This document shows positions 39,760-63,650 of a DNA stretch of 64,000 nt, one piece after another. Every line of letters begins with the position of its first letter. The stretch's first letter is position 1. Below the pieces are notes generated by a model, which did no database searches, was not told the origin of the DNA, and saw only the letters and a program-made list of their open reading frames with translations. The DNA is taken from the NCBI GenBank assembly GCA_947493885.1, contig CANLTE010000004.1, positions 186,001-250,000 on the forward strand. Direction: 5' to 3'. The stretch is from an uncultured Maribacter sp. (lineage in GTDB: Bacteria > Bacteroidota > Bacteroidia > Flavobacteriales > Flavobacteriaceae). The position numbers were made by a program, and so were the translations under genes.

Positions 39760-41553
39760 ATGAAAATGAAAAACATTTTGTTTTTACTTGTTTCACCATT
39801 TTTGGTACTAAGCTGTAATACCAAAACAACTAATATTAAAAATCCAAATATTATTGTTATTGTTACTGACGATCAAGGATATGGAGATTTGGGATATCAT
39901 GGAAATCCTTGGATAAAAACACCTAATTTAGATAAATTTGCAGCACAATCATTAGAGCTTACTAATTTTCATGTAGGTACAACATGCGCTCCCACAAGAG
40001 CCGGCTTAATGACAGGGCGAAATGCAAATAGAAATAATGCGTGGCATACTATTGCAGGATGTTCTATTTTAAAGCAAGAAGAAGAAACCATGGCTCAGGT
40101 TTTTGAAAAAAATGGATATAAAACTGCAATGTTTGGCAAATGGCATCTTGGTGATAATTATCCATATAGACCACATGACAGAGGTTTTCAAAACGCAATA
40201 TATCATGGTGGTGGTGGAGTTGGTCAAACTCCTGATTTATGGAACAATAATTATTTTGATGACACCTATTTAAGAAACGGAATTCCAGAGAAATTTAAAG
40301 GCTACTGTACAGACATTTGGTTTAATGAAACCATGAATTTCATATCCAAAAATAATACAGAACCTTTTTTCATATACCTTGCAACCAATGCTGCTCACCA
40401 CCCCTTTAATGTCCCTGAGGAATATGCGAAAATATATGAGAACACTGAACTCATGGATTATCAAAAAAGGTTCTATGGTATGATTACCAACATTGATGAT
40501 AATTTTGGAAAACTAATAAAATACCTTAAGAAAAAAGAAATCTATGATAATACCATAATAGTTTTTACTACAGATAATGGTACGGCGGCAGGCATAACCT
40601 ATGACAAAATTAGAGATCTTGAAATTGGTTATAATGCAGGCCTAAAAGGCACAAAAGGGAGCCATTATGATGGTGGGCATCGTGTACCGTTTTTTATAAG
40701 CTGGCCAAATGGCAAAATACTGAAAAACAAAAGTCTAAATGCACTTACCGCACATGTAGATTTATTACCTACCCTTACTAACTTATCTAAAGTCCCCTTT
40801 GAACCCAAAAACACATTGGATGGCACCGATATTTCTCCAATATTAACTGGAGAAAAAAATGACATAAAAAGAATGCTAGTAGTTGACACGCAACGCAACC
40901 AATGGCCCGAAAAAAATAAAAATAGTACAGTAATGTCTACGAATTATAGACTAGTAAATAACTCCGAACTATACAATACCGTAAAGGATCCTGGACAAAA
41001 AGTAGATATTGCCAACAAAAACCAAGAAATTGTATCTAAAATGCAAGCTTTTTACAACCACTGGTGGGAATCCATTGAACCAGAATTTACTCATGCAAAA
41101 ATTCCAATTGGTCATACTGAACATGAACCAGTAGATATCACCATTCATGATTTGCATTCAACTGAAAATATTCCCTGGAATCAAGTTCAAATTAGAGAAG
41201 GAAAGTTTTACCCTAAAGGCTATTATAGTATTAAAGTTATAAAAGACGGGACCTATAATTTTAAATTAAAGAGATATCCTTTTGACTCCTCCTTTACATT
41301 AAATCAAGAATTAACTTCTATACCTGAAACCGAATATGTTGATGGATCTCCCAAAGGAAATCAAATTTTAATTTCAACTGGGATAATAAAAATGAATGAC
41401 TTAACTTTCAATGGAATAAACAATTCAAGTGATGAATTTATCCAAATAGAAGCGACACTAAAAAAAGGTAATTACAAAATGCAGAGTTCATTTTTACTTT
41501 CAAACGGAAATGAGGTTCCTGCCTATTATACTCAAATACAAACTTTAAAATAG
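39760..41553 (+). CDS. sulfatase (family S1, formylglycine type), lipoprotein
   Basis: A 597-residue sulfatase with a lipoprotein signal (LVSPFLVLSC). The catalytic motif C76-A-P-T-R-A-G-L-M-T-G is the CxPxR signature in which Cys becomes formylglycine. Metal ligands include VTDDQGYGD near the start and FTTDNGTAAG. The C-terminal 150 residues after about 450 form an extra beta domain. It would remove sulfate esters from algal glycans outside the cytoplasm. It needs an anaerobic or aerobic sulfatase-maturing enzyme, not found in the window. It lies 17 bases after the sensor gene and 11 before the next sulfatase. Confidence 0.92.
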   Translation: MKMKNILFLLVSPFLVLSCNTKTTNIKNPNIIVIVTDDQGYGDLGYHGNPWIKTPNLDKFAAQSLELTNFHVGTTCAPTRAGLMTGRNANRNNAWHTIAGCSILKQEEETMAQVFEKNGYKTAMFGKWHLGDNYPYRPHDRGFQNAIYHGGGGVGQTPDLWNNNYFDDTYLRNGIPEKFKGYCTDIWFNETMNFISKNNTEPFFIYLATNAAHHPFNVPEEYAKIYENTELMDYQKRFYGMITNIDDNFGKLIKYLKKKEIYDNTIIVFTTDNGTAAGITYDKIRDLEIGYNAGLKGTKGSHYDGGHRVPFFISWPNGKILKNKSLNALTAHVDLLPTLTNLSKVPFEPKNTLDGTDISPILTGEKNDIKRMLVVDTQRNQWPEKNKNSTVMSTNYRLVNNSELYNTVKDPGQKVDIANKNQEIVSKMQAFYNHWWESIEPEFTHAKIPIGHTEHEPVDITIHDLHSTENIPWNQVQIREGKFYPKGYYSIKVIKDGTYNFKLKRYPFDSSFTLNQELTSIPETEYVDGSPKGNQILISTGIIKMNDLTFNGINNSSDEFIQIEATLKKGNYKMQSSFLLSNGNEVPAYYTQIQTLK

Positions 41554-41564
41554 ACCATACTTTT

Positions 41565-43067
41565 ATGAAAAACCTTTTAAGTGCACTTATAATACTATTA
41601 TGTATTGGATGCTCTCCAGACAAAAAAGCTCAACCAGTAAAACCTAACGTAGTATTCATTTTTGCCGATGACATGACCTATTCTGCTATTAACGCTCTAG
41701 GAAACAAGCAAATAAAAACACCAAATCTCGATAAGTTAGTAAATCAGGGCACAACTTTTACGCATGCCTATAATATGGGTGCCTGGAATGGTGCCGTTTG
41801 TCAGGCTTCCAGAGCAATGCTGCTTTCAGGTAGAAGTGTTTGGAACATAGATAATTTCCGTAAGAGCTGGATAGCAAACCAAAACTTTGATAAAACATGG
41901 CCTAAACTAATGGAGAAAGAGGGCTATGAAACCTATATGACAGGCAAATGGCATATTGATGCAAAAGCTGATTCCGTTTTTAACAATGTAACTCATGTCC
42001 GCCCAGGAATGCCTGGTGATGCTTGGAATCATGATGAAATGGTTCAAAAATTCAAAGACATCCAAGGAACTAATGTAGACCCGGCAACTCTAATGCCTGT
42101 AGGTTATAATAGGCCGCTAAGTAAAAATGACACCACCTGGAATGCTACGGATAAAAAATACGGAGGCTTCTGGGAAGGAGGAAAACATTGGAGCGAAGTC
42201 CTAAAAGATGATGCTATTACATATATTAATAAGGCGAAGAAAAGTAAAAACCCTTTCTTCATGTATTTAGCATTCAATGCTCCACATGACCCCAGACAAG
42301 CACCACAAAAATATTTAGACATGTACCCTGTGGATAGTATTCAATTACCTAAAAGTTGGTTACCGCAATATCCATTTAAAGATAGTATTGGTAATGGTCA
42401 TGATTTAAGAGATGAGGCGCTTGGTCCGTTTCCCCGAACAGAATATGCAACTAAAACTCATGTTCGTGAATATTATGCATTAATCTCTCATTTAGATGCA
42501 CAAATTGGTGAAATACTAAATAGCTTAGAAGCGTCAGGAAAAATGGATAACACATACATTATATTTTCTGCTGATCATGGTTTAGCTGAAGGAAGGCACG
42601 GGCTTTTGGGAAAACAAACTCTGTTTGATCATAGTATTAGAGCTCCATTCATGGTAGTTGGTCCAAATATTCCAAAAGGACAAAAAGTAGATGCTGATAT
42701 TTACATTCAAGATGCTATGGCTACTAGTTTAGAAATTGCAGGTGCAAAAAAACCAGATTATGTTTTTTTTAATAGTGTTTTAGATTTAATTAATACTGAT
42801 AATAACAAAAGCCATTATCAAAGTATTTACGGTGGATATATTAACTACCAAAGAATGATTCGTAAAGATGGTTTTAAACTTTTATTGTATCCTAAATTAA
42901 AAAAAGTTCTCCTTTTTGATTTGAATAATGATCCAGAAGAAATGAATGATTTAGCTTCAAACGAAGTTTATAAAAGTAAGATTTCATCGCTATATAAAGA
43001 TTTAATCAAGCTCCAAAAAGAACTGAATGACCCTCTAGATTTAAGTCAATTTTACGACATTGAATAG
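41565..43067 (+). CDS. sulfatase (family S1, CxAxR variant), lipoprotein
   Basis: A 500-residue sulfatase with a lipoprotein signal (LIILLCIGC). The metal site FADDMTYSAI is present, and the active-site motif is C79-Q-A-S-R-A-M-L-L-S-G. It has alanine where most S1 sulfatases have proline (CxPxR); CxAxR is a known tolerated variant. FSADHGLAEGRHGLLGKQ supplies the other metal ligands. It resembles choline-sulfatase/iduronate-sulfatase-like proteins of marine Bacteroidota. Substrate: probably a sulfated sugar from the same glycan as its neighbour. The next gene overlaps its end by 8 bases. Confidence 0.9.
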   Translation: MKNLLSALIILLCIGCSPDKKAQPVKPNVVFIFADDMTYSAINALGNKQIKTPNLDKLVNQGTTFTHAYNMGAWNGAVCQASRAMLLSGRSVWNIDNFRKSWIANQNFDKTWPKLMEKEGYETYMTGKWHIDAKADSVFNNVTHVRPGMPGDAWNHDEMVQKFKDIQGTNVDPATLMPVGYNRPLSKNDTTWNATDKKYGGFWEGGKHWSEVLKDDAITYINKAKKSKNPFFMYLAFNAPHDPRQAPQKYLDMYPVDSIQLPKSWLPQYPFKDSIGNGHDLRDEALGPFPRTEYATKTHVREYYALISHLDAQIGEILNSLEASGKMDNTYIIFSADHGLAEGRHGLLGKQTLFDHSIRAPFMVVGPNIPKGQKVDADIYIQDAMATSLEIAGAKKPDYVFFNSVLDLINTDNNKSHYQSIYGGYINYQRMIRKDGFKLLLYPKLKKVLLFDLNNDPEEMNDLASNEVYKSKISSLYKDLIKLQKELNDPLDLSQFYDIE

Positions 43068-44262
43068 AAAAACGTTACAACAATTAGCTGTATTAGTTTG
43101 TTTAGTGTTACTAAACACCGGCTGCGTTAAAAAAAAAGAAAAACCAGTTACTTTTACCACTTTTTTAGAAGATTTAAAATTTGTTGAAAAATTCACAAAA
43201 CCAATACTTCTAAAAAGTGGTGAAAGCAGCATTTTAGTGACACCTGATTATGAGGCTATTATATTAACAAGTACCACATCTGGAAACAATGGTTTTAGCA
43301 ATGGCTATTTAAATCAAACACAAATTTCCGAAAATATAATCCACGCAGGAGGTAACCAATATGGTGGTGAAGACCGCTTATGGCTTGCCCCCCTTGGTAG
43401 TAGATTTACATTGTTCTATAAACAAAATCCTATTGAAGATGAAAACTGGTTTATTCCTAAAGCTTTTGACGCAACGCCTTTCAGCTTAAATTCAGAAACA
43501 TCTACCTCCCTAAGTTTTCAAAAAGAAGTTTTAATAACCAATAACATTGGTACTTCTTTCAATATTAGAATAAACAGAGATATCAATATTTTTTCAAAAA
43601 CTGAAATTGAAAAAGAACTCAACATAAAAATTGGTTCCGCATTGAAACATGTGGGCTTTCAATCCAAAAATACAATTACCAATATTGGATTAGATTGGTC
43701 AGAAGAAAAAGGACTAATAACACCATGGGTATTAGGCATGTATAAAGGAAATAATAAATCAACAGCAATTTTCCCCTATACGGAGTCAGATTCCGTTACG
43801 ACTAAAATTTCCACATATTTAAATGATATTAAAACAGATAGATTAATTCGTAAAAATGGAAACGTTTTATTTAAAACAGATGGAGCTTACCGAAGTAAAA
43901 TAGGACTTAAACCAAAAAATGTACTTCCAATTTTCGGAAATTACGATGGCATTAATGAAGTATTGACTGTTATAACCTTTTCGTTTCGCAAAGAAGAACG
44001 TTTTTTAAGTTCTGATGATAGAGATTTAGAAAGCGGACTCTGGAATGGTGATGTTATAAATTCTTATAACAATGGAGAAAATAAAGACGGTATGGCTACT
44101 TTTTTTGAATTAGAAAGTGCTGCTCATGGTAAAACGTTAAAGAGTAATGAAAATATAACACATACCCACAAAACGTTTCACTTTACTGGAGATAAAAAAG
44201 AACTTAGCAAACTATGCTCAAAACTTTTTAATATAGAACTAAAAGACCTTTATTTTGATTGA
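43060..44262 (+). CDS. DUF6786-like lipoprotein
   Basis: A 400-residue lipoprotein (signal QLAVLVCLVLLNTGC, Cys 22) with no catalytic motif that I recognise. It contains NQYGGEDRLWLAPLGSRFTL, which I recall from DUF6786-type proteins, and many alternating strands, suggesting a beta-sandwich similar to galactose-mutarotase-like folds. The only possible start that keeps the signal peptide is TTG at 43060, inside the end of the preceding sulfatase gene, so translation is coupled to it. Its last 13 bases overlap the end of the convergent araC gene. A role in glycan binding or processing is inferred from position only. Confidence 0.72.
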   Translation: MNRKTLQQLAVLVCLVLLNTGCVKKKEKPVTFTTFLEDLKFVEKFTKPILLKSGESSILVTPDYEAIILTSTTSGNNGFSNGYLNQTQISENIIHAGGNQYGGEDRLWLAPLGSRFTLFYKQNPIEDENWFIPKAFDATPFSLNSETSTSLSFQKEVLITNNIGTSFNIRINRDINIFSKTEIEKELNIKIGSALKHVGFQSKNTITNIGLDWSEEKGLITPWVLGMYKGNNKSTAIFPYTESDSVTTKISTYLNDIKTDRLIRKNGNVLFKTDGAYRSKIGLKPKNVLPIFGNYDGINEVLTVITFSFRKEERFLSSDDRDLESGLWNGDVINSYNNGENKDGMATFFELESAAHGKTLKSNENITHTHKTFHFTGDKKELSKLCSKLFNIELKDLYFD

Positions 44263-45125
44263 TATTTACGAAGCCCCTGATTTCGAAAATGAGCAGGAGT
44301 TTGTCCAATTATTTTTTTAAACAACTTAGAAAAATAAGAAAAGTTATAAAACCCAACCTTATTAGAAATTTCCCTTAAAGAATCATCGGTGGTTAATAAC
44401 AAAAGTTGTGCTCTTTCTATTCGTTTAAGCTGAATGTATTGGTTTGGTCCCAAACCATATTGTTTTTTAAAACTTCTTGAAAAATAATCCTTGCTTAAAT
44501 GGCAATATGCTGCCAAGACATCTAATGTAATTGTTTCATGTAAATGTTGCGAAATATAATTTAAAACTCTTGTTAAATTATGTTCGTTCTTTTTTTTAGA
44601 TGTAAACTTATAATCTATAAACTTTGACAACAAAAGCTTTATAATTGCTTGAGTTTCTATAAACTTATCGGTCGACAAAAGCTCATTTCTTTTCTGAAAT
44701 GAATATAAAGCGGGGTAGTTATCGTAACTTTCTGGGTTGCTTTTAACCAAACTTCTTTCTGGGTTTATTTTAAGAAGTCGCTTAAAACATTTAATATCCA
44801 ACTTACTTGCCTTAACCTCGTTTAAAAAATGTATTAAATTATAAATGGACAAACCGTTTTCCATCTCCTCAAAAAAACTTATGTAAAATTGTTCATGATG
44901 TAGATTACATTTATAACTACTATAGGTATAACTTGGTATTAAATATAAATTTCCAGGCCTAAGAATATACTCCTTGTTATTATGATAAACATACGCCTCT
45001 CCTTTAGTTATTAAATACAATCTCGTAAACGGACTTATAACATTATCATAGTTCCAGCTACTATCCAATTTTGCATAGCCAATGTTTAACAAGCTAACCT
45101 TTAGCGATTCTATTGGTAAAAACAT
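44250..45125 (-). CDS. AraC-family transcriptional regulator (second of tandem pair)
   Basis: A 291-residue protein with an N-terminal cupin-like sensing domain (RLYLITKGEAYVYHN, LRPGNLYLIPSYTYSSYKC) and a C-terminal double helix-turn-helix (LDVLAAYCHLSKDYFSRSFK, then REISNKVGFYNFSYFSKLFK). It is a clear paralogue of the gene 5 bases upstream: both share GYA.LD..WNY.NVIS and EVKASKLD. The pair probably arose by tandem duplication. They are likely regulators of the surrounding glycan genes; the ligand is probably a sugar. Confidence 0.92.
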   Translation of the reverse strand: MFLPIESLKVSLLNIGYAKLDSSWNYDNVISPFTRLYLITKGEAYVYHNNKEYILRPGNLYLIPSYTYSSYKCNLHHEQFYISFFEEMENGLSIYNLIHFLNEVKASKLDIKCFKRLLKINPERSLVKSNPESYDNYPALYSFQKRNELLSTDKFIETQAIIKLLLSKFIDYKFTSKKKNEHNLTRVLNYISQHLHETITLDVLAAYCHLSKDYFSRSFKKQYGLGPNQYIQLKRIERAQLLLLTTDDSLREISNKVGFYNFSYFSKLFKKIIGQTPAHFRNQGLRKYQSK

Positions 45126-45130
45126 ATAAT

Positions 45131-45991
45131 TTAACTGTATAACTGTTGTTTTCTGAAACCAGCAGGGGTAACTCCTGTTAACTTTTTAAAAGTCTTTGAA
45201 AAATAAGCAACATCATACATCCCAACCTCTTCCGCTATTTGTTTTAAAGATTTTTTAGTGGTAAGCAATAAAAATTGAGAACGTTCTATTCGTTTTAATT
45301 GAATAAATCTAATTGGTCTTATTCCGTATTTATCTTTAAAACTTCTTGAAAAATAATCAGTATTTAAATTACAAAAATCTGACAGACCTTCTACCGTAAG
45401 ATTTCCAGATAAATTTTCAGCAATATAAACTAACACCTTGTTTAAATCCCCCTTATCCTTTTTAGAAACACTTATATTTCCTTCAGTAACAAATCTTGAA
45501 AGTAATATTTCCAAAATTGATTTCGTTTCAAGCTGGTTTTTCAAATCGTTCTGAGAGTTCTCCGTTTTTTTAATTAAACCTCCATTAACAAAGACCTTAG
45601 GGTCTGAATTTTTAACCATTTTATTAGGATGTATTTCTAACAAGCGTTTAAAAAGCCTTTTATCCAATTTACTTGCCTTAACCTCATAAGTAAAAGCAAG
45701 TAAATTAAAAATAGAAACCCCGTAAGTTACCTCTTCAAAAAAACCAGTATAAAATTGCTCATGATACTCTATACATCTATAATTATTATACGTATAACTA
45801 GGTATTAAATACATATAACCAGGCCTTAAGGTATAAGCTTCTCCCGAGTGTTCCATTTCTCCCGCTCCTTTAGTAATAAAAAATAACCTTACGAACGTGC
45901 TTATAACATTACTATAATTCCATTTATTATCTAATTCTGCATAACCTGTATGAAGAAGATTACAATTTATATTCTGCAAAAAATTTGCCAT
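45131..45991 (-). CDS. AraC-family transcriptional regulator (first of tandem pair)
   Basis: A 286-residue paralogue of the following gene with the same layout: a cupin-like domain (LRPGYMYLIPSYTYNNYRC) and an AraC helix-turn-helix (GLSDFCNLNTDYFSRSFKDK, KQIAEEVGMYDVAYFSKTFK). It is transcribed away from the planctomycete-type cytochrome operon, with 174 bases between the two starts. That gap has paired repeats which could be the binding site of either regulator. Confidence 0.92.
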   Translation of the reverse strand: MANFLQNINCNLLHTGYAELDNKWNYSNVISTFVRLFFITKGAGEMEHSGEAYTLRPGYMYLIPSYTYNNYRCIEYHEQFYTGFFEEVTYGVSIFNLLAFTYEVKASKLDKRLFKRLLEIHPNKMVKNSDPKVFVNGGLIKKTENSQNDLKNQLETKSILEILLSRFVTEGNISVSKKDKGDLNKVLVYIAENLSGNLTVEGLSDFCNLNTDYFSRSFKDKYGIRPIRFIQLKRIERSQFLLLTTKKSLKQIAEEVGMYDVAYFSKTFKKLTGVTPAGFRKQQLYS

Positions 45992-46088: not shown

Positions 46089-46171
46089 TATTTTTGACTG
46101 ATTTAGATAGAAAATATCATTTCATTAAATTTATTTTTGTTTTAATGAATGATAAATATCATTTTATGATA
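46089..46171 (+). promoter_or_regulatory. control region of the PSD1-DUF1501 operon
   Basis: TATTTTTG (46089-46096) matches the -7 consensus perfectly. Two exact copies of AAATATCATTT lie at 46112-46122 and 46154-46164, 42 bases (four helical turns) apart. The second is embedded in AATGATA-AA-TATCATT (46147-46162) and in TATCAT-TTT-ATGATA (46157-46171), whose right arm contains the start codon. These may be AraC-type sites or leader hairpins that cover the start codon. Confidence 0.4.
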
Positions 46172-49100
46172 AAACATAGCATATTTTTTTCTTTTTTAGC
46201 AGTTATATTGATTTCTTGTGGAGGTCCTGAATTACCAGATTCTGTGGCGCAAGCCTATACGAATATTCCCAAAAAAATCGACTTTAATCAACATGTAAAA
46301 CCTATATTATCAGACAAATGTTATTTATGTCATGGACCTGATAAAGCTAATATCAAAGGTGGACTACAACTTCATACTCCAGAGCTGGCTTACGCAGAAC
46401 TTTCTGAATCGCCTGGTAAATATGCCATTAAACCTGGAAACCTAAATAAAAGTGAATTTTTCCATCGCATTATTACGGAGGACCCAAAATATATGATGCC
46501 GGAACCAGATTCTCATTTATCGTTATCCGATTATGAAAAGGCAATACTAATTAAATGGATAGAAGACGGCGCTGAGTATAAAGATCATTGGGCTTTTATT
46601 AAACCAATAAAGGAAAAAATACCGGAGGTAAAAAACACGGATTTAGTAGCAAATTTGATTGATAATTTTGTTTTAGAAGAACTAGAACTTAACAACATGA
46701 AGTTTGCTCCAAAAGCAGATAAAGAGTTGTTATTACGAAGAGCTTCATTAGATTTAACGGGCTTACCTCCTACTATCGAAGAACTTGATGCTTTTTTAAA
46801 TGACAATTCTCCAGATGCATACGAAAAGCAAATTGATCGCCTTTTAGCATCACCTCATTACGGAGAGCAACGTACGTTAGATTGGATGGATTTAGCAAGG
46901 TATGCTGACACACATGGCTATAGTGTAGATTGGTTTAGAGACGTTTCTCCTTGGAAAGATTGGGTAATAAAATCATTTAATGAAAACATGCCCTATGACG
47001 AATTTGTTTTATGGCAAATGGCAGGTGACATGTTACCAAATGCTACTCGAGAACAACGTTTAGCTACAACATTCAACAGACTACATCCACAAAATCTCGA
47101 AGGAGGCATTATTGATGAAGAATTTCGTGTTGAATATGTTGCTGACCGAACAGCAACTGTAAGTCAGGCCTTTTTAGGATTAACCGTTGCCTGTGCTAAA
47201 TGTCATGATCATAAATATGATCCTATTTCGCAAAAAGATCATTTTGAATTATTCAGCTTTTTTAATAATGTTAACGAGACGGGATTAATTCCATGGGATT
47301 TGGCAACACCTGTACCAAATATGCTACTTCCAACTGAAGAGCAAGAAAAAGTTCTTGCCTATTTAGAAACTCTAGTTGAAGACAAAGAAAAAATTGTAGA
47401 TGAAGTAACAAATACTGAATCCAAAAATGCTTTGGATTGGATTACTGATGAAGCATATAAAACAATAAATACAAAAAACTATCCAACTGGTCTGGTTTCC
47501 CATTTTGATTTTAACGACAAAAAATTAAAAGACAAATTACCTCAAAGAAAAAAGCTTAATATTAGAATGCGTCAACAGTATGCTGATAATCAAAAGGCAG
47601 TATTCCAAAAAGGAGCTTCTGGATACGGGTTAAGCATGGATGGAGACACTTGGTTAGATTTAGATGAAATTGGTATTTATAATAGAAGTAACGCATTTAC
47701 TATTGGCATTAAGGCATTTATTCCAGAAGACTTAGAAAACGGTGTTATTTTTCACAAAATGCAAGGCCCTGAATTACATAGCTATAGAGGGTATCACCTA
47801 AACATTAAGGATAATAAAATAGAAGCGCTGTTAGCACACGTATGGCCAGACAATGCGGTTGTAACCCAATCTTTAAAAGATGTTCCAAAGAATAAATGGA
47901 TACAATTAACAATGTCATATGATGGTTCTAGTAAAGCAAGTGGGGTCTCAATGTATTTAGATGGCGAAAAATTAGAAACCGAAACCAAGGTAGATAATCT
48001 TTATAAAGATATTGTTTTCAGAAAACAAGATATAGGGCTTTACAATGGAAAAACCGAACCTGGTTTAAGAATTGGAGCTATTTGGAGAGGAAAAGGCTTA
48101 AGAAATGGTGCTGTTGACGATATTATGGTTTTTAACCGTGAGTTAACTCAAATTGAAGTAATGCAAATTGCCAATAAAAAAGGGTTAGATCAATTAATTT
48201 CAAAGTCTAATAATGTCATTTCTCAAGAAGAAAAAAGTTTACTTACAAAGTATTATTTAGTTCATAAATCTTCTAGCTATAAAAAATCAATGGAAGAACT
48301 GGCTAAAACTAGAACTGCGTATGTTGACAGTATTGAACCTGTGAAAGAAATCATGGTGATGAAAGAAATGGAGACACCTAGACAGGCATACGTTCTAGAC
48401 AGAGGGCAATATGACTCTCCTACTGATTCTGTTTTCCCAAATGTGCCTGAGAAAATATTTCCTTTTCCAGATAGCTTACCAAAAAACAGAATTGGATTAT
48501 CTAAATGGATAACACATAAAGACAATCCTTTAACGGCAAGAGTTACGGTAAATAGATATTGGCAAAACATTTTTGGAAGAGGTTTGGTTAAAACCTCTGA
48601 AGACTTTGGTAATCAAGGAGAGCTACCAAGTCATCCAAAACTTTTAGACTGGTTAGCTGTTAACTTTGTAGAATCTGGTTGGGACGTAAAAGCACTTCAT
48701 AAATTAATAATGCTATCTAACACCTATCAACAGAGTAGTAGAGTTAGCGAAGAATTATTAAATATAGACAAGGAAAACAGACTCTTAGCAAGAGGGCCAG
48801 CAAAACGACTATCTGGAGAAATGCTAAGAGATAATGCATTATTTGCCTCAGGATTATTAAGTAAAAAAATTGGAGGCGAAAGTGTTAGTCCATACCAACC
48901 TCCAGGATTATGGCTAGTAAATGGTGATAAATACAAACCTAGTTCAGGTGAAGATTTGTATAGAAGAAGTATGTATACCATCTGGAAAAGAACTGTTCCA
49001 CACCCTACAATTTCTACTTTTGATGCTCCTACAAGAGATTTATGTACTACAAGAAGGCAAGAAACAAACACACCTCTTCAAGCATTAGTTTTACTAAATG

Positions 49101-49411
49101 ACCCAACCTTTATTGAGGCCTCTAGAGTTTTAGGAATAACCATGAGTACCTATGATAATGTTGAATTAGGTATTTCTGATGCATTTAGAAAGCTTACAGG
49201 TAGAAAAATAAAGACTAAAGAGTTAGAAGTTTTAGCTGCTTTGCAAAAGTCTGAGCTAGAAAAATTCAGAAACAACGATACAAAAGCTAAAGGTTGGATT
49301 AGTCTTGGTGAGCACAAAATTACCTCTGGTGATGATGAAGCTTTAATTGCAGCTAACGCGGTTGTAGCAAGTACAATTATGAATTCAGATGCTAGCATTA
49401 CCAAAAGGTAA
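46166..49411 (+). CDS. PSD1/DUF1549/LamG/DUF1553 c-type cytochrome lipoprotein
   Basis: About 1,081 residues from ATG 46166, which gives a lipoprotein signal (FFSFLAVILISC); the frame is open to 46094. Domains in order: planctomycete cytochrome c (PSC) with haem motif C52-Y-L-C-H56; DUF1549 (about 130-375) with RASLDLTGLPPT and a second CxxCH, C343-A-K-C-H347; a LamG/concanavalin-like insert (about 455-660); and DUF1553 (about 780-1040, with NRIGLSKWITHKDNPLTARV, GPAKRLSGEMLRDNA and TRRQETNTPLQALVLLNDP). This architecture is typical of Planctomycetes and Verrucomicrobia. The biochemical role is unknown; the two haems suggest extracytoplasmic electron transfer, and LamG suggests glycan binding. 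First gene of a four-gene operon. Confidence 0.92.
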   Translation: MIKHSIFFSFLAVILISCGGPELPDSVAQAYTNIPKKIDFNQHVKPILSDKCYLCHGPDKANIKGGLQLHTPELAYAELSESPGKYAIKPGNLNKSEFFHRIITEDPKYMMPEPDSHLSLSDYEKAILIKWIEDGAEYKDHWAFIKPIKEKIPEVKNTDLVANLIDNFVLEELELNNMKFAPKADKELLLRRASLDLTGLPPTIEELDAFLNDNSPDAYEKQIDRLLASPHYGEQRTLDWMDLARYADTHGYSVDWFRDVSPWKDWVIKSFNENMPYDEFVLWQMAGDMLPNATREQRLATTFNRLHPQNLEGGIIDEEFRVEYVADRTATVSQAFLGLTVACAKCHDHKYDPISQKDHFELFSFFNNVNETGLIPWDLATPVPNMLLPTEEQEKVLAYLETLVEDKEKIVDEVTNTESKNALDWITDEAYKTINTKNYPTGLVSHFDFNDKKLKDKLPQRKKLNIRMRQQYADNQKAVFQKGASGYGLSMDGDTWLDLDEIGIYNRSNAFTIGIKAFIPEDLENGVIFHKMQGPELHSYRGYHLNIKDNKIEALLAHVWPDNAVVTQSLKDVPKNKWIQLTMSYDGSSKASGVSMYLDGEKLETETKVDNLYKDIVFRKQDIGLYNGKTEPGLRIGAIWRGKGLRNGAVDDIMVFNRELTQIEVMQIANKKGLDQLISKSNNVISQEEKSLLTKYYLVHKSSSYKKSMEELAKTRTAYVDSIEPVKEIMVMKEMETPRQAYVLDRGQYDSPTDSVFPNVPEKIFPFPDSLPKNRIGLSKWITHKDNPLTARVTVNRYWQNIFGRGLVKTSEDFGNQGELPSHPKLLDWLAVNFVESGWDVKALHKLIMLSNTYQQSSRVSEELLNIDKENRLLARGPAKRLSGEMLRDNALFASGLLSKKIGGESVSPYQPPGLWLVNGDKYKPSSGEDLYRRSMYTIWKRTVPHPTISTFDAPTRDLCTTRRQETNTPLQALVLLNDPTFIEASRVLGITMSTYDNVELGISDAFRKLTGRKIKTKELEVLAALQKSELEKFRNNDTKAKGWISLGEHKITSGDDEALIAANAVVASTIMNSDASITKR

Positions 49412-49435
49412 CTAGTAATTCTAAAATACAATATT

Positions 49436-50953
49436 ATGTGTAATAATCACGAACACAGCAGATTAACCTCTAACAATAAAGACTTTCAAGAAATTGAAAA
49501 ACAAATTGATAGAAGGCATTTTTTAAAGAAAACATCTTTGGGACTTGGAGCTATGGCACTAGGAAGTCTTTTGGGTTCCGAAAAGTTAATGGCCAACTTG
49601 GGGAATAAAGATGTTCAAGAAGCGGTACTTAATAATTACAATAAAAACAGACTTGGTTTACCTCACCATTTACCCAAGGCAAAACGCATTATCTATTTAT
49701 TTCAAAGTGGAGGACCTTCACAAATAGATTTATTTGATTATAAGCCAAAACTAGTAGATATGTTTGGTAAAGAATTACCAGAGTCTGTTATTGGTGGTCA
49801 AAGACTTACCGGTATGAGTGGTAGTCAAAGTACACTACCTGTTGCTCCCTCTTCATTTAACTTTAAGCAATATGGAGAATCTAGAGCATGGGTTAGTGAT
49901 GCCATGCCATATTTATCTGAAGTTGTTGACGATTTATGTTTTGTAAAAGGAATGCAAACTGATCAGATAAATCATACCCCTGCTATCACGTTTATGCAAA
50001 CTGGTCATCAACTACCAGGTAGACCTTCAATTGGCTCATGGTTAAGTTATGGTTTAGGCTCTGACAATGAAAATTTACCAACTTTTATTACCCTTGTATC
50101 CAAAAACGGTAAAGGTCAACCTTTAAAAGCAAGTTTATGGGGAAACGGTTTTTTACCAACAGAGCATCAAGGTGTACAATTTAGATCAGGTAAAGACCCT
50201 GTATTATATTTAAGTGACCCTGAAAATTACGACGGTAATGACCGAAGACATATGCTAGATTATTTAGGGCATTTAAATGAAATTCAGAATGATGCCTATG
50301 GAGATCCTGAAATTCAAGCAAGAATGGCTCAATACGAAATGGCATTTAAAATGCAAACATCTGTTCCTGAAGTAGCAGATTTGTCGGATGAGCCAGAACA
50401 TATTTTTGATTTATATGGAAAAGACAGCAGAGATCCAGGCACATACGCGGCCAATTGTTTAATGGCAAGAAAACTTTTAGAAAAAGGAGTAAAATTTATA
50501 CAACTATACCACCAAGGTTGGGATCAACACATTGGATGCCCTGGTGGAGTCAAAAATCAAAGTAAAAATACAGACCAAGCCAATGCTGCTCTTATTAAAG
50601 ACCTAAAGCAACGAGGTATGCTTGATGATACCTTAGTGATTTGGGGCGGAGAATTTGGTCGTACCGTATATTCGCAAGGACAATTAACCGAAGATAATTA
50701 TGGTCGTGACCATCACCCAAAGGCTTTTACTATGTGGATGGCTGGTGCGGGTATAAAACCAGGATTCACCTATGGAGAAACGGATGATTTTAGTTACAAT
50801 GTTGTAAAAGATCCTGTTCATGTTCACGATTTTCACGCTACACTGTTACATTTATTTGGTGTTGATCACGAAAGACTCACCTTTAAGCATCAAGGAAGAC
50901 GCTATAGATTAACCGATGTACACGGTAATGTTGTGAAAGATTTATTAACCTAA
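49436..50953 (+). CDS. DUF1501 family protein, exported
   Basis: A 505-residue protein with a twin-arginine-like signal (DRRHFLKKTSLGLGAMALGS). DUF1501 proteins share the alkaline-phosphatase/sulfatase fold; visible features include LFQSGGPSQIDLFDYKP, MQTDQINHTPAITFMQTG, WGGEFGRTVYSQG, GRDHHPKAFTMWMAGAG and DVHGNVVKDL. In planctomycetes the DUF1501 gene almost always follows a DUF1553 gene, and the same is true here, with 24 bases between them. It has no formylglycine motif, so it is not an ordinary sulfatase. Function is unknown. Confidence 0.92.
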   Translation: MCNNHEHSRLTSNNKDFQEIEKQIDRRHFLKKTSLGLGAMALGSLLGSEKLMANLGNKDVQEAVLNNYNKNRLGLPHHLPKAKRIIYLFQSGGPSQIDLFDYKPKLVDMFGKELPESVIGGQRLTGMSGSQSTLPVAPSSFNFKQYGESRAWVSDAMPYLSEVVDDLCFVKGMQTDQINHTPAITFMQTGHQLPGRPSIGSWLSYGLGSDNENLPTFITLVSKNGKGQPLKASLWGNGFLPTEHQGVQFRSGKDPVLYLSDPENYDGNDRRHMLDYLGHLNEIQNDAYGDPEIQARMAQYEMAFKMQTSVPEVADLSDEPEHIFDLYGKDSRDPGTYAANCLMARKLLEKGVKFIQLYHQGWDQHIGCPGGVKNQSKNTDQANAALIKDLKQRGMLDDTLVIWGGEFGRTVYSQGQLTEDNYGRDHHPKAFTMWMAGAGIKPGFTYGETDDFSYNVVKDPVHVHDFHATLLHLFGVDHERLTFKHQGRRYRLTDVHGNVVKDLLT

Positions 50954-50970
50954 TAGTAAACAAATAAAAA

Positions 50971-52077
50971 ATGTCAAGTAGACGAAACTTTATAAAAAAA
51001 ACAGGTTTAGCAGGAGCGGTCCTTACTGCCACCCCTTCTTTTGGGTTTAACATTTTGAAAAAAAGTCAACCGGAAGAAACCCTATTAGGTCATGGAGATT
51101 ATCAATACAAATTGGTTAAGGATTGGGGGAAAATTAGTTCGGTTCGAAACCCTCTTCTTAATTGCCATGAAATGCAGATGGACAGTAAAGGGAGACTAAT
51201 TATGATAGGAGATCATCCAAAAAATAATATCATAATTTTTGATAAATCTGGTAAAGTATTAGATTATTGGGGAACGGCTTATCCTGGAGGACATGGTTTA
51301 ACTATTTCCAATGAAGGAGGAGAAGATTTTCTTTTCTTAGCTGATTCTGGGTGGTTTTTGAATAAAACGGGAAAATGGACAAAACACAATGGGCGTGTAT
51401 CTAAAACAACTACTGACGGTCGTGTTGTTTTTGATATAGGCCACCCACAAACTATTGGCATTTATGAGCCTGGACAGCATTACTGTCCAACGGAAGTAGC
51501 CGTTGGTCCAAATGGTGATATTTATGTTGCCGATGGTTACGGCCAAGACGTTATTATCCAATACGATTATAAAGGACAATATAAAAGACACTGGGGAGGA
51601 CACAACAACGAGGATAAAAACTATAACTTTAATTGTGCTCACGGAATTGCGATAGATTATCGTGAAAAAAATAACCCAATGCTAGTTATCACCTCCAGAG
51701 CTGATAAATGCTTTAAATGGTTTACTCTTGATGGTAAATATGTAAAAACACTTCACTTACCTAACATGCAAGTGTGTCGACCTGTTTTTGATGATATCAA
51801 TCTATACGCAGGAGTATGTTGGTCACAACCTAAAGAAGGCAAAACTAGCTGGAAAGAACATACCGGTTTTGTTACAATTTTAGAGGGCGATAAAGTTGTC
51901 TCCAACCCTGGAGGAACATCTCCCGAATATAAAAATGGTGAACTTCAAAAGTCTTACCAACTACTAAGCAAACCTATTTTACATGGTCATGATGTTTGTG
52001 TTGACGAAGATAAAAATCTTTATATCTGTCAATGGAATGCAAATCATTCAGCTCCTTTAAAACTAGAAAGAGTTTAA
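50971..52077 (+). CDS. Tat-exported NHL-type beta-propeller protein
   Basis: A 368-residue protein with a twin-arginine signal (SSRRNFIKKTGLAGAVLTA) and beta-propeller blades of the NHL/6-bladed type: GKVLDYWGTAYPGGHGLTIS, HYCPTEVAVGPNGDIYVADG, GYGQDVIIQYDYKGQYKRHW, CAHGIAIDYREKNNPMLVIT and HGHDVCVDEDKNLYICQWN. The closest type is peptidyl-alpha-hydroxyglycine-lyase/NHL-like proteins found in planctomycetes, but no catalytic zinc site can be confirmed by eye. It is 17 bases after the DUF1501 gene and 22 before a cytochrome gene, clearly one operon. Confidence 0.85.
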   Translation: MSSRRNFIKKTGLAGAVLTATPSFGFNILKKSQPEETLLGHGDYQYKLVKDWGKISSVRNPLLNCHEMQMDSKGRLIMIGDHPKNNIIIFDKSGKVLDYWGTAYPGGHGLTISNEGGEDFLFLADSGWFLNKTGKWTKHNGRVSKTTTDGRVVFDIGHPQTIGIYEPGQHYCPTEVAVGPNGDIYVADGYGQDVIIQYDYKGQYKRHWGGHNNEDKNYNFNCAHGIAIDYREKNNPMLVITSRADKCFKWFTLDGKYVKTLHLPNMQVCRPVFDDINLYAGVCWSQPKEGKTSWKEHTGFVTILEGDKVVSNPGGTSPEYKNGELQKSYQLLSKPILHGHDVCVDEDKNLYICQWNANHSAPLKLERV

Positions 52078-52099
52078 AAGCTATTAACACTACATTTTA

Positions 52100-53494
52100 A
52101 TGAACGAAGTATCAGACATTGTCTTATTTTTTGGAAGATTCCATCCACTTTTAGTGCACCTACCAATTGGATTCTTATTTTTTGCTTTTCTACTTGAAAT
52201 TATTAGTAAATGGAAAAAGAATCCGAGCCTTACCACAGCCATACCATTAGCATTATTATTAGGTGCACTGAGTGCTTTGGGAAGTTGTATTTTAGGCTAT
52301 ATGCTTTCTTTAAGTGGCGATTACGATGAAAGCGCGGTTGACATTCATTTTTGGTTTGGAATAGCTACCACGGTAGTTGCATTTGTTGCATGGTTAATTA
52401 GAACTGAAAAACTTAATATTCCAAATACAAATACTGTTAAAGCCAATATTTCAACGCTTACTTTAATTGTGGTTTTACTTAGTGTTACTGGACATTATGG
52501 TGGTAACTTAACTCATGGAAGCGATTATCTTGTAAAATATTTACCTTTTGGGAAAGAGCCCAAAAAGGAGCTTCCAGCGATATCTAAGATTGAAGATGCA
52601 GGTGTATACGATTACTTAGTAGACCCTATTCTTCAAAACAAATGTACCAGCTGTCACAATCCAAGCAAGAAAAAGGGGGGGCTTTCATTTATAGACAGTA
52701 CATCCATTCTTGCTGGCGGAAAAAATGGAGATGCCCTTATTCCAGGCAACTCAAATAAATCTGAAATGATAAAAAGGGTTTTGTTAGACCCTCATCATGA
52801 TGATTTTATGCCTCCTGAAGGAAAAACACCTTTAACTGAGGAAGAAATAGCTATTTTAATGTATTGGATTGATAATGCAAATGCTAACTTTTCATCTCAA
52901 ATAAAAGGTATTGAAACACCAGAAAACATTAACAAGATTGCATCCAATTTCCTGGAAATTCCTATCGAAGGCGAAAAAGGAACCACAAAATTACCTACTG
53001 TAACTCCAATTAATGAGGAAACATTAACCGCAATTAAAAAAGAAGGGTTTCAAATTAGAGAATTAGTTTTTGAATCTAATATATATGAAGTTGTGCTGCC
53101 TTCTCAAACAATTACAGCCGAAAATTCAAACGAACTAGACAAAAAACTAGCTCTTTTAACTGATATTAAAGAAAATATATTATGGTTTTATGCGGAAAAT
53201 AATGGTATTAATGATGGGCATTTAAAGTTAATTTCTGAATTTGTAAATCTTCAAAAATTAAACATAAATAATAACCCTATTACGGATAAAGGTATTGCTG
53301 CATTTGAAAATCACGCTTTTCTAAATAGTGTTAACCTTTATGGAACTAATGTCACGAAGAAAAGTTTAGTTTCATTTACTAAAATGAAAAATTTACAAAA
53401 CGTTTATGCATGGAAAACAGCAATAAAAAGCGACGATATCACTTCAACGTTTAAAGACAATGAAAATGCCCCAAAAATAAGTTTAGGGCTTTAA
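52100..53494 (+). CDS. DUF2231 membrane protein with cytochrome c (PSC) and leucine-rich repeats
   Basis: A 464-residue protein. The N-terminus is a DUF2231-type four-helix membrane domain (FFGRFHPLLVHLPIGFLFFA, with the conserved HP...HLPIG) to about residue 150. It is followed by a planctomycete-type cytochrome c domain with haem motif C182-T-S-C-H186 and DDFMPPEGKTPLTEEEI as the Met-ligand region, and then leucine-rich repeats (about 350-460). It would anchor a haem c at the outer face of the inner membrane, making it a candidate electron acceptor or donor for the PSD1 cytochrome of the same operon. Last gene of the operon. Confidence 0.9.
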   Translation: MNEVSDIVLFFGRFHPLLVHLPIGFLFFAFLLEIISKWKKNPSLTTAIPLALLLGALSALGSCILGYMLSLSGDYDESAVDIHFWFGIATTVVAFVAWLIRTEKLNIPNTNTVKANISTLTLIVVLLSVTGHYGGNLTHGSDYLVKYLPFGKEPKKELPAISKIEDAGVYDYLVDPILQNKCTSCHNPSKKKGGLSFIDSTSILAGGKNGDALIPGNSNKSEMIKRVLLDPHHDDFMPPEGKTPLTEEEIAILMYWIDNANANFSSQIKGIETPENINKIASNFLEIPIEGEKGTTKLPTVTPINEETLTAIKKEGFQIRELVFESNIYEVVLPSQTITAENSNELDKKLALLTDIKENILWFYAENNGINDGHLKLISEFVNLQKLNINNNPITDKGIAAFENHAFLNSVNLYGTNVTKKSLVSFTKMKNLQNVYAWKTAIKSDDITSTFKDNENAPKISLGL

Positions 53495-53635: not shown

Positions 53636-55321
53636 ATGTTAACGCTGGTTAAAAAGCTTCTGTCTTACATAATTTTTATCATTCTTTTATTTCTATACTC
53701 ATGTTCTGAAAAAATAAAAAAAACACCTCAAAAGCCAAATATAATCTATATCATGGCGGATGACCACACCAGTCAAGCTTTTGGTATTTATGGTAGCAGA
53801 CTGGCTAGCTTAAACCCTACTCCTACTTTGGATAAGTTGGCAAATGATGGGATGATTTTTGACAATTGCTTTGTAAACAATTCTATATGCGTGCCGAGCA
53901 GAGCTGCAATAATGACGGGTCAGCGCGCGCAAACTAATGGGGTTATTGATTTAGAAGGGGTACTACCTCCCGAAAAACAATACCTACCAAAAGAAATGAG
54001 GAAATTAGGTTACCAAACAGCTATGATTGGTAAATGGCATCTACATGAAGAACCTGCAGCTTTTGATTATTACAAAGTATTTCCAGCTCAAGGAAAGTAC
54101 TTTGACCCTGAGTTTAGAATTCAAGGAGACAAACCATGGCCAGAAAATATTGAGAAAAGAAAAGGACATTCCTCAGATAATGTTACTGACATAGCTCTTA
54201 ATTGGTTAAAAAAAGAAAGAGATCCCAACAAACCTTTCTTTTTAATGCACCACTTTAAAGCTCCACATGACGATTTTAAATATGCTCCACGATACAAAAA
54301 TTATCTAGCCAACACTTTTATTCCTGAGCCAGAGAGCCTTTATGATAACAAAAACAATGGTTCCGTTGCTACAAGAGGTGTAAATGACTCCTTAACACGA
54401 ATAATTGGGTCATCAGTATCTCATAGAAATCATATTCGTAATCAAGCTATGAATATTTACTGGAACGATAGTACAATATACAAGCAGTATAGAAACGCTA
54501 GAGACATTCAACCTAATGAATATACGAAATTTGAGTTAACTGCCGATGAAAAAACATATACAAGTAAAGTTTATCAAGATTATTTAAAAAAATATTTACG
54601 ATGTGTAAAAGGAGTTGATGATAATGTAAAGCGCTTGTTGGATTATTTAGAAGCCGAAAATTTATTGGAAAACACTATTATTGTTTATACTGGTGATCAA
54701 GGATTTATGCTTGGCGAACATGATTATATTGACAAACGTTGGATGTATGAAGAATCTATGCGAATGCCATTTTTTGTGCGTTACCCAAAATCCATTGCAC
54801 GTGGCTCTAGAACGGATGCCATAATTAACAACACTGATTTTGCTCCAACCCTAATACAACTTGCTGGAGGAGAAAAGCCAGAGTACATGCAAGGGAACAG
54901 TTTTAAATCTATACTGGAAACTGGAGAAGAGCCAGAAAATTGGCAACAGGCAACATATTATCGCTATTGGATGCATTTAGCCCACAGACACCAAAATCCA
55001 GCACATTTTGGCATTCGCACAAAAGAACATAAGCTAATTTTTTACTACGGAAAGTATTGGGTAGACACCGATAACCCTAGCGCGGAATACAACAAAGAAA
55101 GCTGGGGTAACGATTTTGCTAATCATACACCAGTGGCTTGGGAATTTTATGATTTAAAAAATGATCCTAAAGAAATGAATAACGCTTACAATAATCCAAA
55201 ATATAAAGATATTATTGGTAAATTGAAGGCTCAATTAATTACAATGAGAGAAAATCTCAATGAAACAGATGCTAATTATCCGCACATTCAAAAAGTAATT
55301 GATGAACACTGGAACGATTAA
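53636..55321 (+). CDS. sulfatase (family S1, formylglycine type), lipoprotein
   Basis: A 561-residue sulfatase with a lipoprotein signal (IIFIILLFLYSC). Metal site MADDHTSQAFGIYG, catalytic motif C85-V-P-S-R-A-A-I-M-T-G (CxPxR), GKWHLHEEPAAF and YTGDQGFMLGEH are all present. The layout, including HHFKAPHDDF, resembles the iduronate/N-acetylglucosamine-6-sulfatase-like group seen in fucan and carrageenan loci. It would desulfate glycans in the periplasm or at the surface. It shares an operon with a GH2 enzyme 24 bases downstream. Confidence 0.92.
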   Translation: MLTLVKKLLSYIIFIILLFLYSCSEKIKKTPQKPNIIYIMADDHTSQAFGIYGSRLASLNPTPTLDKLANDGMIFDNCFVNNSICVPSRAAIMTGQRAQTNGVIDLEGVLPPEKQYLPKEMRKLGYQTAMIGKWHLHEEPAAFDYYKVFPAQGKYFDPEFRIQGDKPWPENIEKRKGHSSDNVTDIALNWLKKERDPNKPFFLMHHFKAPHDDFKYAPRYKNYLANTFIPEPESLYDNKNNGSVATRGVNDSLTRIIGSSVSHRNHIRNQAMNIYWNDSTIYKQYRNARDIQPNEYTKFELTADEKTYTSKVYQDYLKKYLRCVKGVDDNVKRLLDYLEAENLLENTIIVYTGDQGFMLGEHDYIDKRWMYEESMRMPFFVRYPKSIARGSRTDAIINNTDFAPTLIQLAGGEKPEYMQGNSFKSILETGEEPENWQQATYYRYWMHLAHRHQNPAHFGIRTKEHKLIFYYGKYWVDTDNPSAEYNKESWGNDFANHTPVAWEFYDLKNDPKEMNNAYNNPKYKDIIGKLKAQLITMRENLNETDANYPHIQKVIDEHWND

Positions 55322-55335
55322 CAAACTATCCTTAA

Positions 55336-58617
<3,282 letters not shown>

Positions 58618-59041: not shown

Positions 59042-60364
59042 TTACTTCTTATTATATACTTTATAAACTTTTCTTCCGTAAAGAGTTACCACCAGTAAAC
59101 ACACTAATGAAAGAAAAAATGAATATCTCATTTCGGTTACTCCTAAAAACAAAGTGTCTTCATATCCACTACCTCCAAAATCCAAAATATACCCTTTAAG
59201 GTAAGGTAATAAAGCCCCTCCTACTATTGCCATTACTAAAAATGCTGCACCAAACTTGGCATCTTCACCTTGACCTTCTAATGCAATACCATAAATTGTT
59301 GGAAACATAATTGATAAAAAGAATGATGTTGCTACCAATGAATAAATACCTGCCATTCCTGGTAAAAAGATTGCTCCCAAAACAGTTGTCATTGCTCCTA
59401 ATCCAAAAAACATAAGTAATTTACCTGAATCCATTTTTGCCATTAAAGCAGTACCAACTGTTCTACCAACTAGAAAAACAATATATCCAGCTAAACCATA
59501 TGTAACAGCTGATTTGCTATCTATACCTAAAGTTTCAGCGTATTGATATACATATGTCCAGCACATAATTTGTGCTCCTACATAAAACGCCTGAGCTATA
59601 ACCCCAAAAGAAAACTTAGGTTGTTTCCACAATCTCTGTACCGATTCAGAAAATTTGACCTTTGCTCCTTGAGTTTTATTTTCTGGCATTTTTAAAACAC
59701 TTATCAGAATAAAAAATACCAAAACTACAATTCCTAAAATTACATATGGATTACGAATAACGGCTAAATCAGAAGTTCGTATTGCCGCTTTTGCTGTCTC
59801 AGAAAGTGTATCGTAAATAGCTGTACCGTCTGCAGTGGTATCATCAGATTGTAACGCTCCTAAAACAAAGTTTTGCGCTATTAGTAACCCTGCTATAGAT
59901 CCCATTGGGTTAAACATTTGGGCAAAATTCAAACGTCTAGTAGCAGTCTCTTCCGCTCCCATAGATAATACATATGGGTTTGCAGTTGTTTCTAAAAATG
60001 CTAGCCCAAAAGTTAAAATGTATAATGCTGCTAAAAAGAATGCATAGCTTTCATTTGCAGCGGCTGGATAAAAAAGTAGTGCACCACAAGCATATAGAGC
60101 TAAACCAACAAGGACTCCCTTTTTATAAGAAAACTTGTTTACAAATAATGCTGCGGGAATTGCCATTGTAAAATACCCCCCGTAAAACGCTAATTGTACT
60201 AATGAAGCTTGTACATTTGTAAGTTCTAACACTTTTTGAAACCCTCTTACCATAGGATTTGTCATATCATTTGCTAACCCCCACAAGGCAAATAACGAGG
60301 TAATGAGTATAAATGGAATTAAAATAGATTTTGCTACTACAGGTATTTTACTTTCTGTACTCAT
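59042..60364 (-). CDS. fucP: L-fucose:H+ symporter (FucP type, MFS)
   Basis: A 440-residue major-facilitator transporter with about 12 hydrophobic segments and the FucP-like N-terminus (FALWGLANDMTNPMVRGFQK, family FFLWGxxNxxND.L), followed by FYGGYFTMAIPAALFVNKFS and ETTANPYVLSMG. In E. coli FucP the Asp of this N-terminal helix binds proton and sugar. It would import L-fucose across the inner membrane. It is in an operon with the mutarotase and two oxidative-pathway enzymes. Confidence 0.92.
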   Translation of the reverse strand: MSTESKIPVVAKSILIPFILITSLFALWGLANDMTNPMVRGFQKVLELTNVQASLVQLAFYGGYFTMAIPAALFVNKFSYKKGVLVGLALYACGALLFYPAAANESYAFFLAALYILTFGLAFLETTANPYVLSMGAEETATRRLNFAQMFNPMGSIAGLLIAQNFVLGALQSDDTTADGTAIYDTLSETAKAAIRTSDLAVIRNPYVILGIVVLVFFILISVLKMPENKTQGAKVKFSESVQRLWKQPKFSFGVIAQAFYVGAQIMCWTYVYQYAETLGIDSKSAVTYGLAGYIVFLVGRTVGTALMAKMDSGKLLMFFGLGAMTTVLGAIFLPGMAGIYSLVATSFFLSIMFPTIYGIALEGQGEDAKFGAAFLVMAIVGGALLPYLKGYILDFGGSGYEDTLFLGVTEMRYSFFLSLVCLLVVTLYGRKVYKVYNKK

Positions 60365-60436
60365 AATTATATTATTGTTTTAAGTTGGTTATAAATATAT
60401 TATCTAATTCGTCCAAAAAAACACAGAATTCATAAG

Positions 60437-61228: not shown

Positions 61229-61236
61229 AGTAATTT

Positions 61237-62064: not shown

Positions 62065-62068
62065 AATA

Positions 62069-63613: not shown

Positions 63614-63633
63614 AATATTAATTCGTTTGTTTC

Positions 63634-63650
63634 GGCAATAAAACATTGCC
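63634..63650. promoter_or_regulatory. small inverted repeat before the fucose operon
   Basis: GGCAAT-5 bases-ATTGCC is a perfect 6-bp inverted repeat, 21-37 bases before the fucosidase ATG. It may be an operator or a leader hairpin. Confidence 0.3.

Follow-up and report, generated by a model that had tools for sequence, protein, structure and literature searches.

A 64,000-nucleotide stretch of an uncultured Maribacter sp. genome (contig CANLTE010000004.1, positions 186,001 to 250,000; hereafter the window) carries a cassette of four genes, P1 to P4 (46166–53494), which joins haem c proteins and a DUF1501 protein to a propeller resembling peptidyl-hydroxyglycine amidating lyase (PAL), a zinc-lyase domain of animal PAM. 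Tentatively, and with somewhat less than even confidence, we propose that the cassette encodes an exported metallo-redox module which, alongside sulfatases and glycosidases, acts on sulfated glycans that contain fucose. PSD1/PSCyt genes with an adjacent DUF1501 gene are a known kind of system, and the interest of this variant lies in its PAL-like protein and its fucose surroundings. The likeness of P3 to a zinc lyase was missed in an earlier sequence-only reading of this DNA, and the likely chemistry therefore changes. A compact set, present in single copy in its genome and combining a zinc-lyase-like partner with a named sugar context, offers a concrete handle on function.

Architecture and Recurrence of the Cassette

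All four genes lie on the forward strand. P1 (46166–49411; longest frame from 46094) encodes a PSCyt1-DUF1549-LamG-DUF1553 lipoprotein, P2 (49436–50953) a DUF1501 protein marked by its signal for Tat export, P3 (50971–52077) an NHL propeller with a Tat signal and a likeness to PAL, and P4 (52100–53494) a DUF2231 membrane domain followed by a PSCyt1 haem c domain and a leucine-rich repeat (LRR)-like end. These assignments rest on open reading frame (ORF) calls and Pfam for all four genes, on NCBIfam for the Tat signals of P2 and P3, and on profile alignment for the PAL likeness of P3. The gaps P1/P2, P2/P3, and P3/P4 measure 24, 17, and 22 bases, and the order PSD1-DUF1501-propeller-DUF2231 is seen many times in other loci, often with a divergent AraC gene. 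The sequence-only reading had described four genes in tight order, three CxxCH motifs, export signals on the first three proteins and flanking sulfatase, GH2 and fucosidase genes, all of which the ORF calls, alignments and family matches given below bear out. Its wider claim of an extracytoplasmic haem c system with a membrane cytochrome also gains support from the predicted export signals, the haem motifs and the putative helices of P4. The domain composition that it gave for P1 was right but the label was not, as PSD1 is DUF1553 and the N-terminal haem domain is PSCyt1.

PSD1 is carried by 67 of the 249 Flavobacteriaceae and 38 of the 296 Bacteroidota genomes searched, and the window's genome has a single copy. 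The suggestion of a new type of module in Bacteroidota is therefore not supported; it is also undercut by the accessible text of a study of Verrucomicrobia in which PSCyt/PSD genes have sulfatase neighbors and a suggested role in carbohydrate use (PMC5615132). For the neighborhood counts, 80 PSD1 loci were sampled (60 of 65 LamG-type and 20 of 63 others) from 128 matches taken out of a longer score-ordered listing that was itself not complete, which favors high scorers, and six loci from named genomes (L032–L037) bring the total to 86, with one place counted twice (L033 is L045). The census covers Flavobacteriaceae/Bacteroidota loci plus plasmid records; a gene counts as "present" at any position within a stretch of at most ~21 kb (neighborhoods were taken up to 20 kb), and comparison is made with 40 control windows placed by hand at round coordinates, of which 39 lie in genomes from the PSD1 search and one in that of the window. 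Related genomes occur in these samples and Fisher p values consequently overstate the evidence.

Of the 86 PSD1 loci, 84 contain DUF1501, 62 the DUF2231 cytochrome, and 47 the propeller, and each is absent from all 40 control windows. All four genes occur together in 35/86 PSD1 loci and 23/60 LamG-type loci; the complete cassette thus recurs, but most loci lack at least one member. Of the 296 Bacteroidota genomes, 38 carry a member of the propeller family, 38 carry PSD1, and 31 carry both, a count that ignores the kinship of genomes. Beyond Bacteroidota, the whole set is found on two plasmids of the algae-derived gammaproteobacterium Catenovulum adriaticum, with homology checked and with a gene order that differs between the two. 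On one, fucP immediately follows the cassette and a divergent AraC gene is also present; on the other, GH115 and GH98 genes follow.

Other PSD1 types have companions of their own. In 11/20 sampled loci, a shorter type (~780 aa) is accompanied by an FGE-like protein and a YceI protein (L099, L102, L103, L105, L106, L107, L112, L113, L116, L117, L118; families named from one member each). Another type occurs with GH92, GH20, and a GHL10-like gene (L100, L110, L111, L114, L115), and its P4 is ~700 aa long, the L100 copy having F5/8C and CHB_HEX/Fn3-like domains. A ~398-aa family is found in 10/60 LamG-type loci (for example L083:13495-14691), mostly divergent from P1, and the one member searched is without a Pfam match.

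The PAL-Like Propeller

P3 matches the NHL repeat in Pfam, and its PDB matches are NHL propellers with PAL (3fvz) among them. By hhalign, P3 aligns with PAL (3fvz 141–320) over 157 columns at 27% identity (probability 95.7, E 9.6e-9), and in hmmsearch with a 47-row P3 profile (alignment A5, the window plus 46 of the 47 propellers, L045 having been dropped) the strongest individual stretch in the five alignments displayed is that of PAL (i-E 5.6e-11). Both programs place P3 Y190, H224, R243, and H340 on PAL Y654, H690, R706, and H786, and the hmmsearch alignment places P3 H108 on PAL H585. We take H585, H690, and H786 of PAL to be its three zinc histidines and Y654 and R706 to be catalytic residues. 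The five P3 residues are invariant in 48/48 cassette sequences and in 22/22 further relatives, among which L174, L175, L177, and L178 belong to one genus, L172, L173, and L176 to another, and L170 and L180 to one genome. P3 therefore looks like a lyase that would carry zinc.

The loci of these 22 relatives gave no PSD1 or DUF1501 match. Two of them have a P4-like gene after the propeller but no PSD1 (by Pfam, L179 has DUF2231 and PSCyt1, and L186 only PSCyt1). Of the 17 plasmid records that contain a P3 relative, four bear PAL-like annotations, one as "peptidylglycine monooxygenase-like" and three as "peptidyl-alpha-hydroxyglycine alpha-amidating lyase family"; the others are labeled 6-bladed beta-propeller, hypothetical protein, or otherwise.

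Some relatives lie near a glycyl-radical enzyme and its activase (L165, on a Moraxella osloensis plasmid, and L166, on a Persicobacter plasmid), and PhyH-type dioxygenase genes occur near propellers without an RRxF motif (L166:2694-3446, L184:9527-10303, L185:14114-14932). A PhyH dioxygenase and a propeller could form a hydroxylase-lyase pair. These relatives suggest that P3-type activity may be independent of haem partners, and P3-type propellers perhaps tend to adjoin radical or oxygenating enzymes. The numbers are small, and neighbors in 2/22 (glycyl-radical enzyme) and 3/22 (PhyH) loci were judged too few to be used as an argument.

Haem Proteins P1 and P4

In P1, Pfam finds PSCyt1, PSCyt2/DUF1549, Laminin_G_3, and PSD1/DUF1553, with three cytochrome/PSD families above cut-off in a single protein. 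The first haem c motif, CYLCH (46319–46333), lies in the PSCyt1 domain (46319–46510), with C52, C55, and H56 each conserved in 88/88 aligned sequences. The second, CAKCH (47192–47206), lies in DUF1549, where C343, C346, H347, and H349 are each found in 88/88 and D348 is conserved. H141 and H823 are further histidines invariant in 88/88. The invariant histidine two residues beyond the second motif makes that haem the likelier of the two to be catalytic. Between DUF1549 and DUF1553 sits a LamG (concanavalin-like lectin) domain (47687–48160; Laminin_G_3, E 9.9e-9). By reading, the N-terminus MIKHSIFFSFLAVILISCGG is a lipoprotein signal; its cysteine is kept in 68/88 sequences, and a crude lipobox pattern matches just 34/87. 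A relationship of the PSCyt1 domain of P1 to hydrazine synthase was considered and rejected (E 0.15, not significant).

P4 matches DUF2231 and PSCyt1, with LRR models under their cut-offs. Its haem c motif, CTSCH (C182-H186; 52643–52657), is kept in 63/63 aligned sequences, as are H15, H20, H83, H132, and H139, which lie in or near the membrane helices predicted from four hydrophobic stretches of helix length. The basic loops, by reading, would fit a periplasmic C-terminus. A Met-Pro is conserved inside the PSCyt1 domains of both P1 and P4, which is presumably the usual Met ligand of class I cytochrome c. P4 is likely a b/c cytochrome facing the quinone pool, its haem b and quinone link being putative. 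Its closest relative in the named genome collection, at 95% identity, is from an uncultured Maribacter sp., and a cytochrome c assembly domain (PF01578) is encoded by two ORFs of the window's genome.

A MauG/MbnH-like di-haem enzyme is encoded directly after P4 in 6/60 LamG-type loci (L042, L045, L049, L059, L064, L072); the L049:14077-15249 protein matches the MauG/MbnH models below their cut-offs.

The DUF1501 Protein and a Hydrolytic Alternative

P2 is a DUF1501 protein (Pfam E 1.1e-156) and, like P3, has a Tat signal exceeding the NCBIfam cut-off; an RRxF signal is found in 81/84 DUF1501 proteins and 46/47 propellers. Eight histidines are invariant in 85/85 sequences, and D363, E406, and D425 are kept in >98%. 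This conserved set would suit an explanation in which P1 and P2 act hydrolytically, DUF1501 being a metal-dependent phosphatase- or sulfatase-like enzyme and the haem domains serving folding, sensing or structure. P2 does resemble sulfatases weakly, both in Pfam (E 0.0087, 15.8 bits vs. a cut-off of 25) and by hhalign (probability 90, E 1.6e-6; alignment A6 holds 48 rows, the window plus 47 of 84 DUF1501). The trusted hhalign match is, however, restricted to 94 C-terminal columns, with the N-terminal half lacking a trusted match and no global alignment, and the formylglycine motif CxPxR or SxPxR is absent from P2 and from 84/84 DUF1501 sequences. As it also leaves the invariant haem motifs of P1 and P4 unexplained, we regard the hydrolytic explanation as improbable. 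A sulfatase-like nucleophile motif read by eye in P2 (INHTPAITFMQTG vs. CxPSRxxxxTG) was dropped, as it found no support in profile alignment.

Association With Sulfatase and Fucose Genes

In a tree of 89 P1 proteins (L033 dropped), the window falls in a clade of 34 rows with support 100, beside a Catenovulum protein encoded near fucP; the position of the Catenovulum rows is called unsure by the program owing to long branches. Once the window and L032, its relative at 96% identity, are set aside, the clade comprises 32 loci and, with the caveat that it was defined after the tree was seen, a sulfatase is present in 14/32 of them vs. 4/52 other PSD1 loci and 4/40 controls. FucP follows the same pattern (9/32 vs. 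1/52 and 0/40), eight of the nine FucP-bearing loci holding a sulfatase too, as do a lactonase-like gene (8/32 vs. 0/52 and 0/40) and AraC (25/32 vs. 3/52 and 7/40). In independent pairs from the tree, FucP and sulfatase go in the same direction in ~3/8 and never in the opposite one, which is not significant (median p 0.25). Over all sampled loci, sulfatases occur in 16/80 (16/60 LamG-type, 0/20 others) vs. 4/40 controls (Fisher p 0.20). The link to sulfatase and fucose genes is therefore good within the window's clade but weak across the family as a whole. The co-occurrence with sulfatases that the sequence-only reading anticipated thus stands within the clade and is not supported as a general link, and GH29, which that reading also named, is not enriched (2/32 clade loci, 3/52 others, 1/40 controls). 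GH2 is not enriched in clade loci, nor are SusC and SusD (9 and 4 of 32 clade loci vs. 9 and 3 of 40 controls), and a link to DUF1080 found no support (2/60 LamG-type, 0/20 other, 2/40 control loci).

The 103 proteins of 150–1000 aa immediately beside the 60 LamG-type cassettes, with AraC genes treated as core, include by Pfam 10 sulfatases, 10 Gfo/Idh/MocA, six di-haem CCP_MauG, and five ThuA proteins, vs. seven, four, two, and one among 569 control ORFs. Gfo/Idh/MocA proteins are, level with sulfatases, the commonest of these neighbors, and this standing, the ThuA count and the presence of Gfo/Idh/MocA in 13/32 clade loci vs. 3/40 controls speak for an explanation in which P1 and P4 are an electron-acceptor chain that re-oxidizes an exported sugar dehydrogenase, for example of the Gfo/Idh/MocA type, with P2 and P3 as accessory proteins and no direct attack on the glycan. 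We nevertheless consider it unlikely, given that the window's operon has no Gfo/Idh gene (there is one at 30597–31931) and that Gfo/Idh occurs in only 22/86 PSD1 loci whereas DUF1501 occurs in 84/86. Least convincing, and in our view quite unlikely, is a general respiratory or stress cassette that has glycan genes as neighbors by chance or by a general clustering of exported genes: sulfatase and FucP are at background outside the clade and, in the accessible text of one study, the Rhodopirellula PSD1/DUF1549 gene RB10051 is discussed under the common stress response (PMC2754498), but it sits poorly with the FucP and lactonase-like genes of the clade, with fucP adjoining the cassette on a Catenovulum plasmid, with the LamG domain in P1, and with GH92 and GH20 beside another PSD1 type (6/20 and 5/20 loci).

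Proposed Mechanism and Its Weak Points

Returning to the metallo-redox module that we favor, P1 would dock on the glycan via its LamG domain and probably oxidize it at the second haem. Electrons would pass through the PSCyt1 haems to P4 and on to the quinone pool, or would come from the quinone pool if the reaction needs oxygen, with P4, likely holding haem b and haem c, exchanging them between P1 and the pool. P3, as a PAL-like zinc propeller, would then cleave or rearrange the unstable oxidized product. P2 may be a metalloprotein, perhaps with an alkaline phosphatase fold, which acts with P1, perhaps as a hydrolase, and removes or transfers an ester group. The sulfatases, GH2, GH29, and the fucose block would complete the breakdown. 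If this oxidize-and-cleave scheme is true, current accounts of how sulfated algal glycans are broken down leave out a redox route.

A bolder version, to which we give little credence at present, sees in the cassette a bacterial design that parallels animal PAM plus cytochrome b561. Here the quinone-linked P4 would feed or drain the P1 haem that oxidizes a glycan substituent or linkage, and the PAL-like P3 would break the resulting hemiacetal or hemiaminal, amounting to a new, non-hydrolytic route to dismantle fucose-containing sulfated glycans, which Bacteroidota and Gammaproteobacteria would share through horizontal transfer.

Several observations weigh against the proposed module. Sulfatases are at control level outside the clade, the clade was drawn with the tree in view, and the tree pairs fall short of significance. 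P3 is found in only 35 and P4 in only 36 of the 60 LamG-type loci, and both in 23, and with the full set in only 35/86 PSD1 loci our proposal is slightly less favored. Over the whole sequence Thin and TRIM3, which are other NHL proteins, outscore PAL against P3, and PAL Met784 is not kept, the corresponding position 338 being H in 38, N in nine, and Y in one of 48 sequences. Propellers exist apart from PSD1, only 17 of 46 places among the matches listed lying within 7 kb of a listed PSD1, and RRxF is missing near the predicted start in 7/22 further relatives (L165, L166, L181–L185), which may be cytoplasmic; P3 therefore seemingly does not depend on this redox partner. Lastly, catalysis by P1 or P2 is a prediction, and AlphaFold models built with seven close sequences are of low confidence for both (mean pLDDT 37.6 for P1 and 30.0 for P2).

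Genomic Surroundings

Upstream of P1 and divergent from it are two AraC-type regulators on the reverse strand (44250–45125 and 45131–45991; Pfam, NCBIfam). Two sulfatases lie farther upstream on the forward strand (39760–41553 and 41565–43067; NCBIfam/family searches), followed by a DUF6786 protein (43060–44262) which among the 86 PSD1 loci is found only in the near twin L032. A third sulfatase, of the SGSH_C type (53636–55321, forward strand; Pfam), begins 141 bases 3′ of P4 and is followed by a GH2 gene (55345–58617, forward strand; Pfam). On the reverse strand, an L-fucose block (59042–63646; NCBIfam) comprises FucP, L-fucose dehydrogenase, an L-fuconolactonase-like amidohydrolase, and a GH29 alpha-L-fucosidase (62069–63646; family search). 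FucP (TIGR00885) and the dehydrogenase score over their NCBIfam cut-offs, and the L-fuconolactonase model falls below its own (275.8 bits vs. 400). Promoter and terminator scans gave results near the shuffle background. The distant Gfo/Idh/MocA protein at 30597–31931 has a Tat-like start (RRNFCKNT), and the genes adjoining it were read by eye as transaldolase and transketolase.

Comparison With Known Systems

DUF1549/DUF1553 genes are numerous in Planctomycetes, and Rhodopirellula baltica has 41 copies of each, with a redox role suggested (PMC2754498, accessible text). No reaction for either family is given in the accessible text of PMC5615132 or PMC2754498, and none is named for these families in a literature search covering titles and the beginnings of abstracts, with most subscription journals outside its coverage. 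Measured against the planctomycete-specific cytochrome genes (PMC5615132), the cassette shares PSCyt1, PSCyt2, and PSD1, Laminin_G_3 among the extra modules, sulfatase neighbors, and a proposed part in carbohydrate use. It differs in being a recurrent gene set with the PAL-like propeller and the DUF2231 cytochrome, and in having the AraC genes and the L-fucose block; the accessible text of PMC5615132 describes the neighbors only as two families of unknown genes.

The window also resembles a SusCD-type polysaccharide utilization locus in holding sulfatases, glycoside hydrolases, a hybrid two-component regulator, and a sugar transporter, but SusC/SusD are not enriched near the cassettes of the clade. 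DUF1501 recalls the sulfatases and the alkaline phosphatase superfamily in its weak C-terminal similarity and its conserved Asp/His/Glu set, and departs from them in lacking the CxPxR motif and any trusted match for its N-terminal half. P3, for its part, shares with PAL (PDB 3fvz) an NHL propeller by profile and the positions of the zinc histidines, Tyr654, and Arg706. Unlike PAL, it has H, N, or Y at the Met784 position and no PHM domain, and it is a bacterial protein, exported by Tat as judged from its signal, that is encoded within a haem operon.

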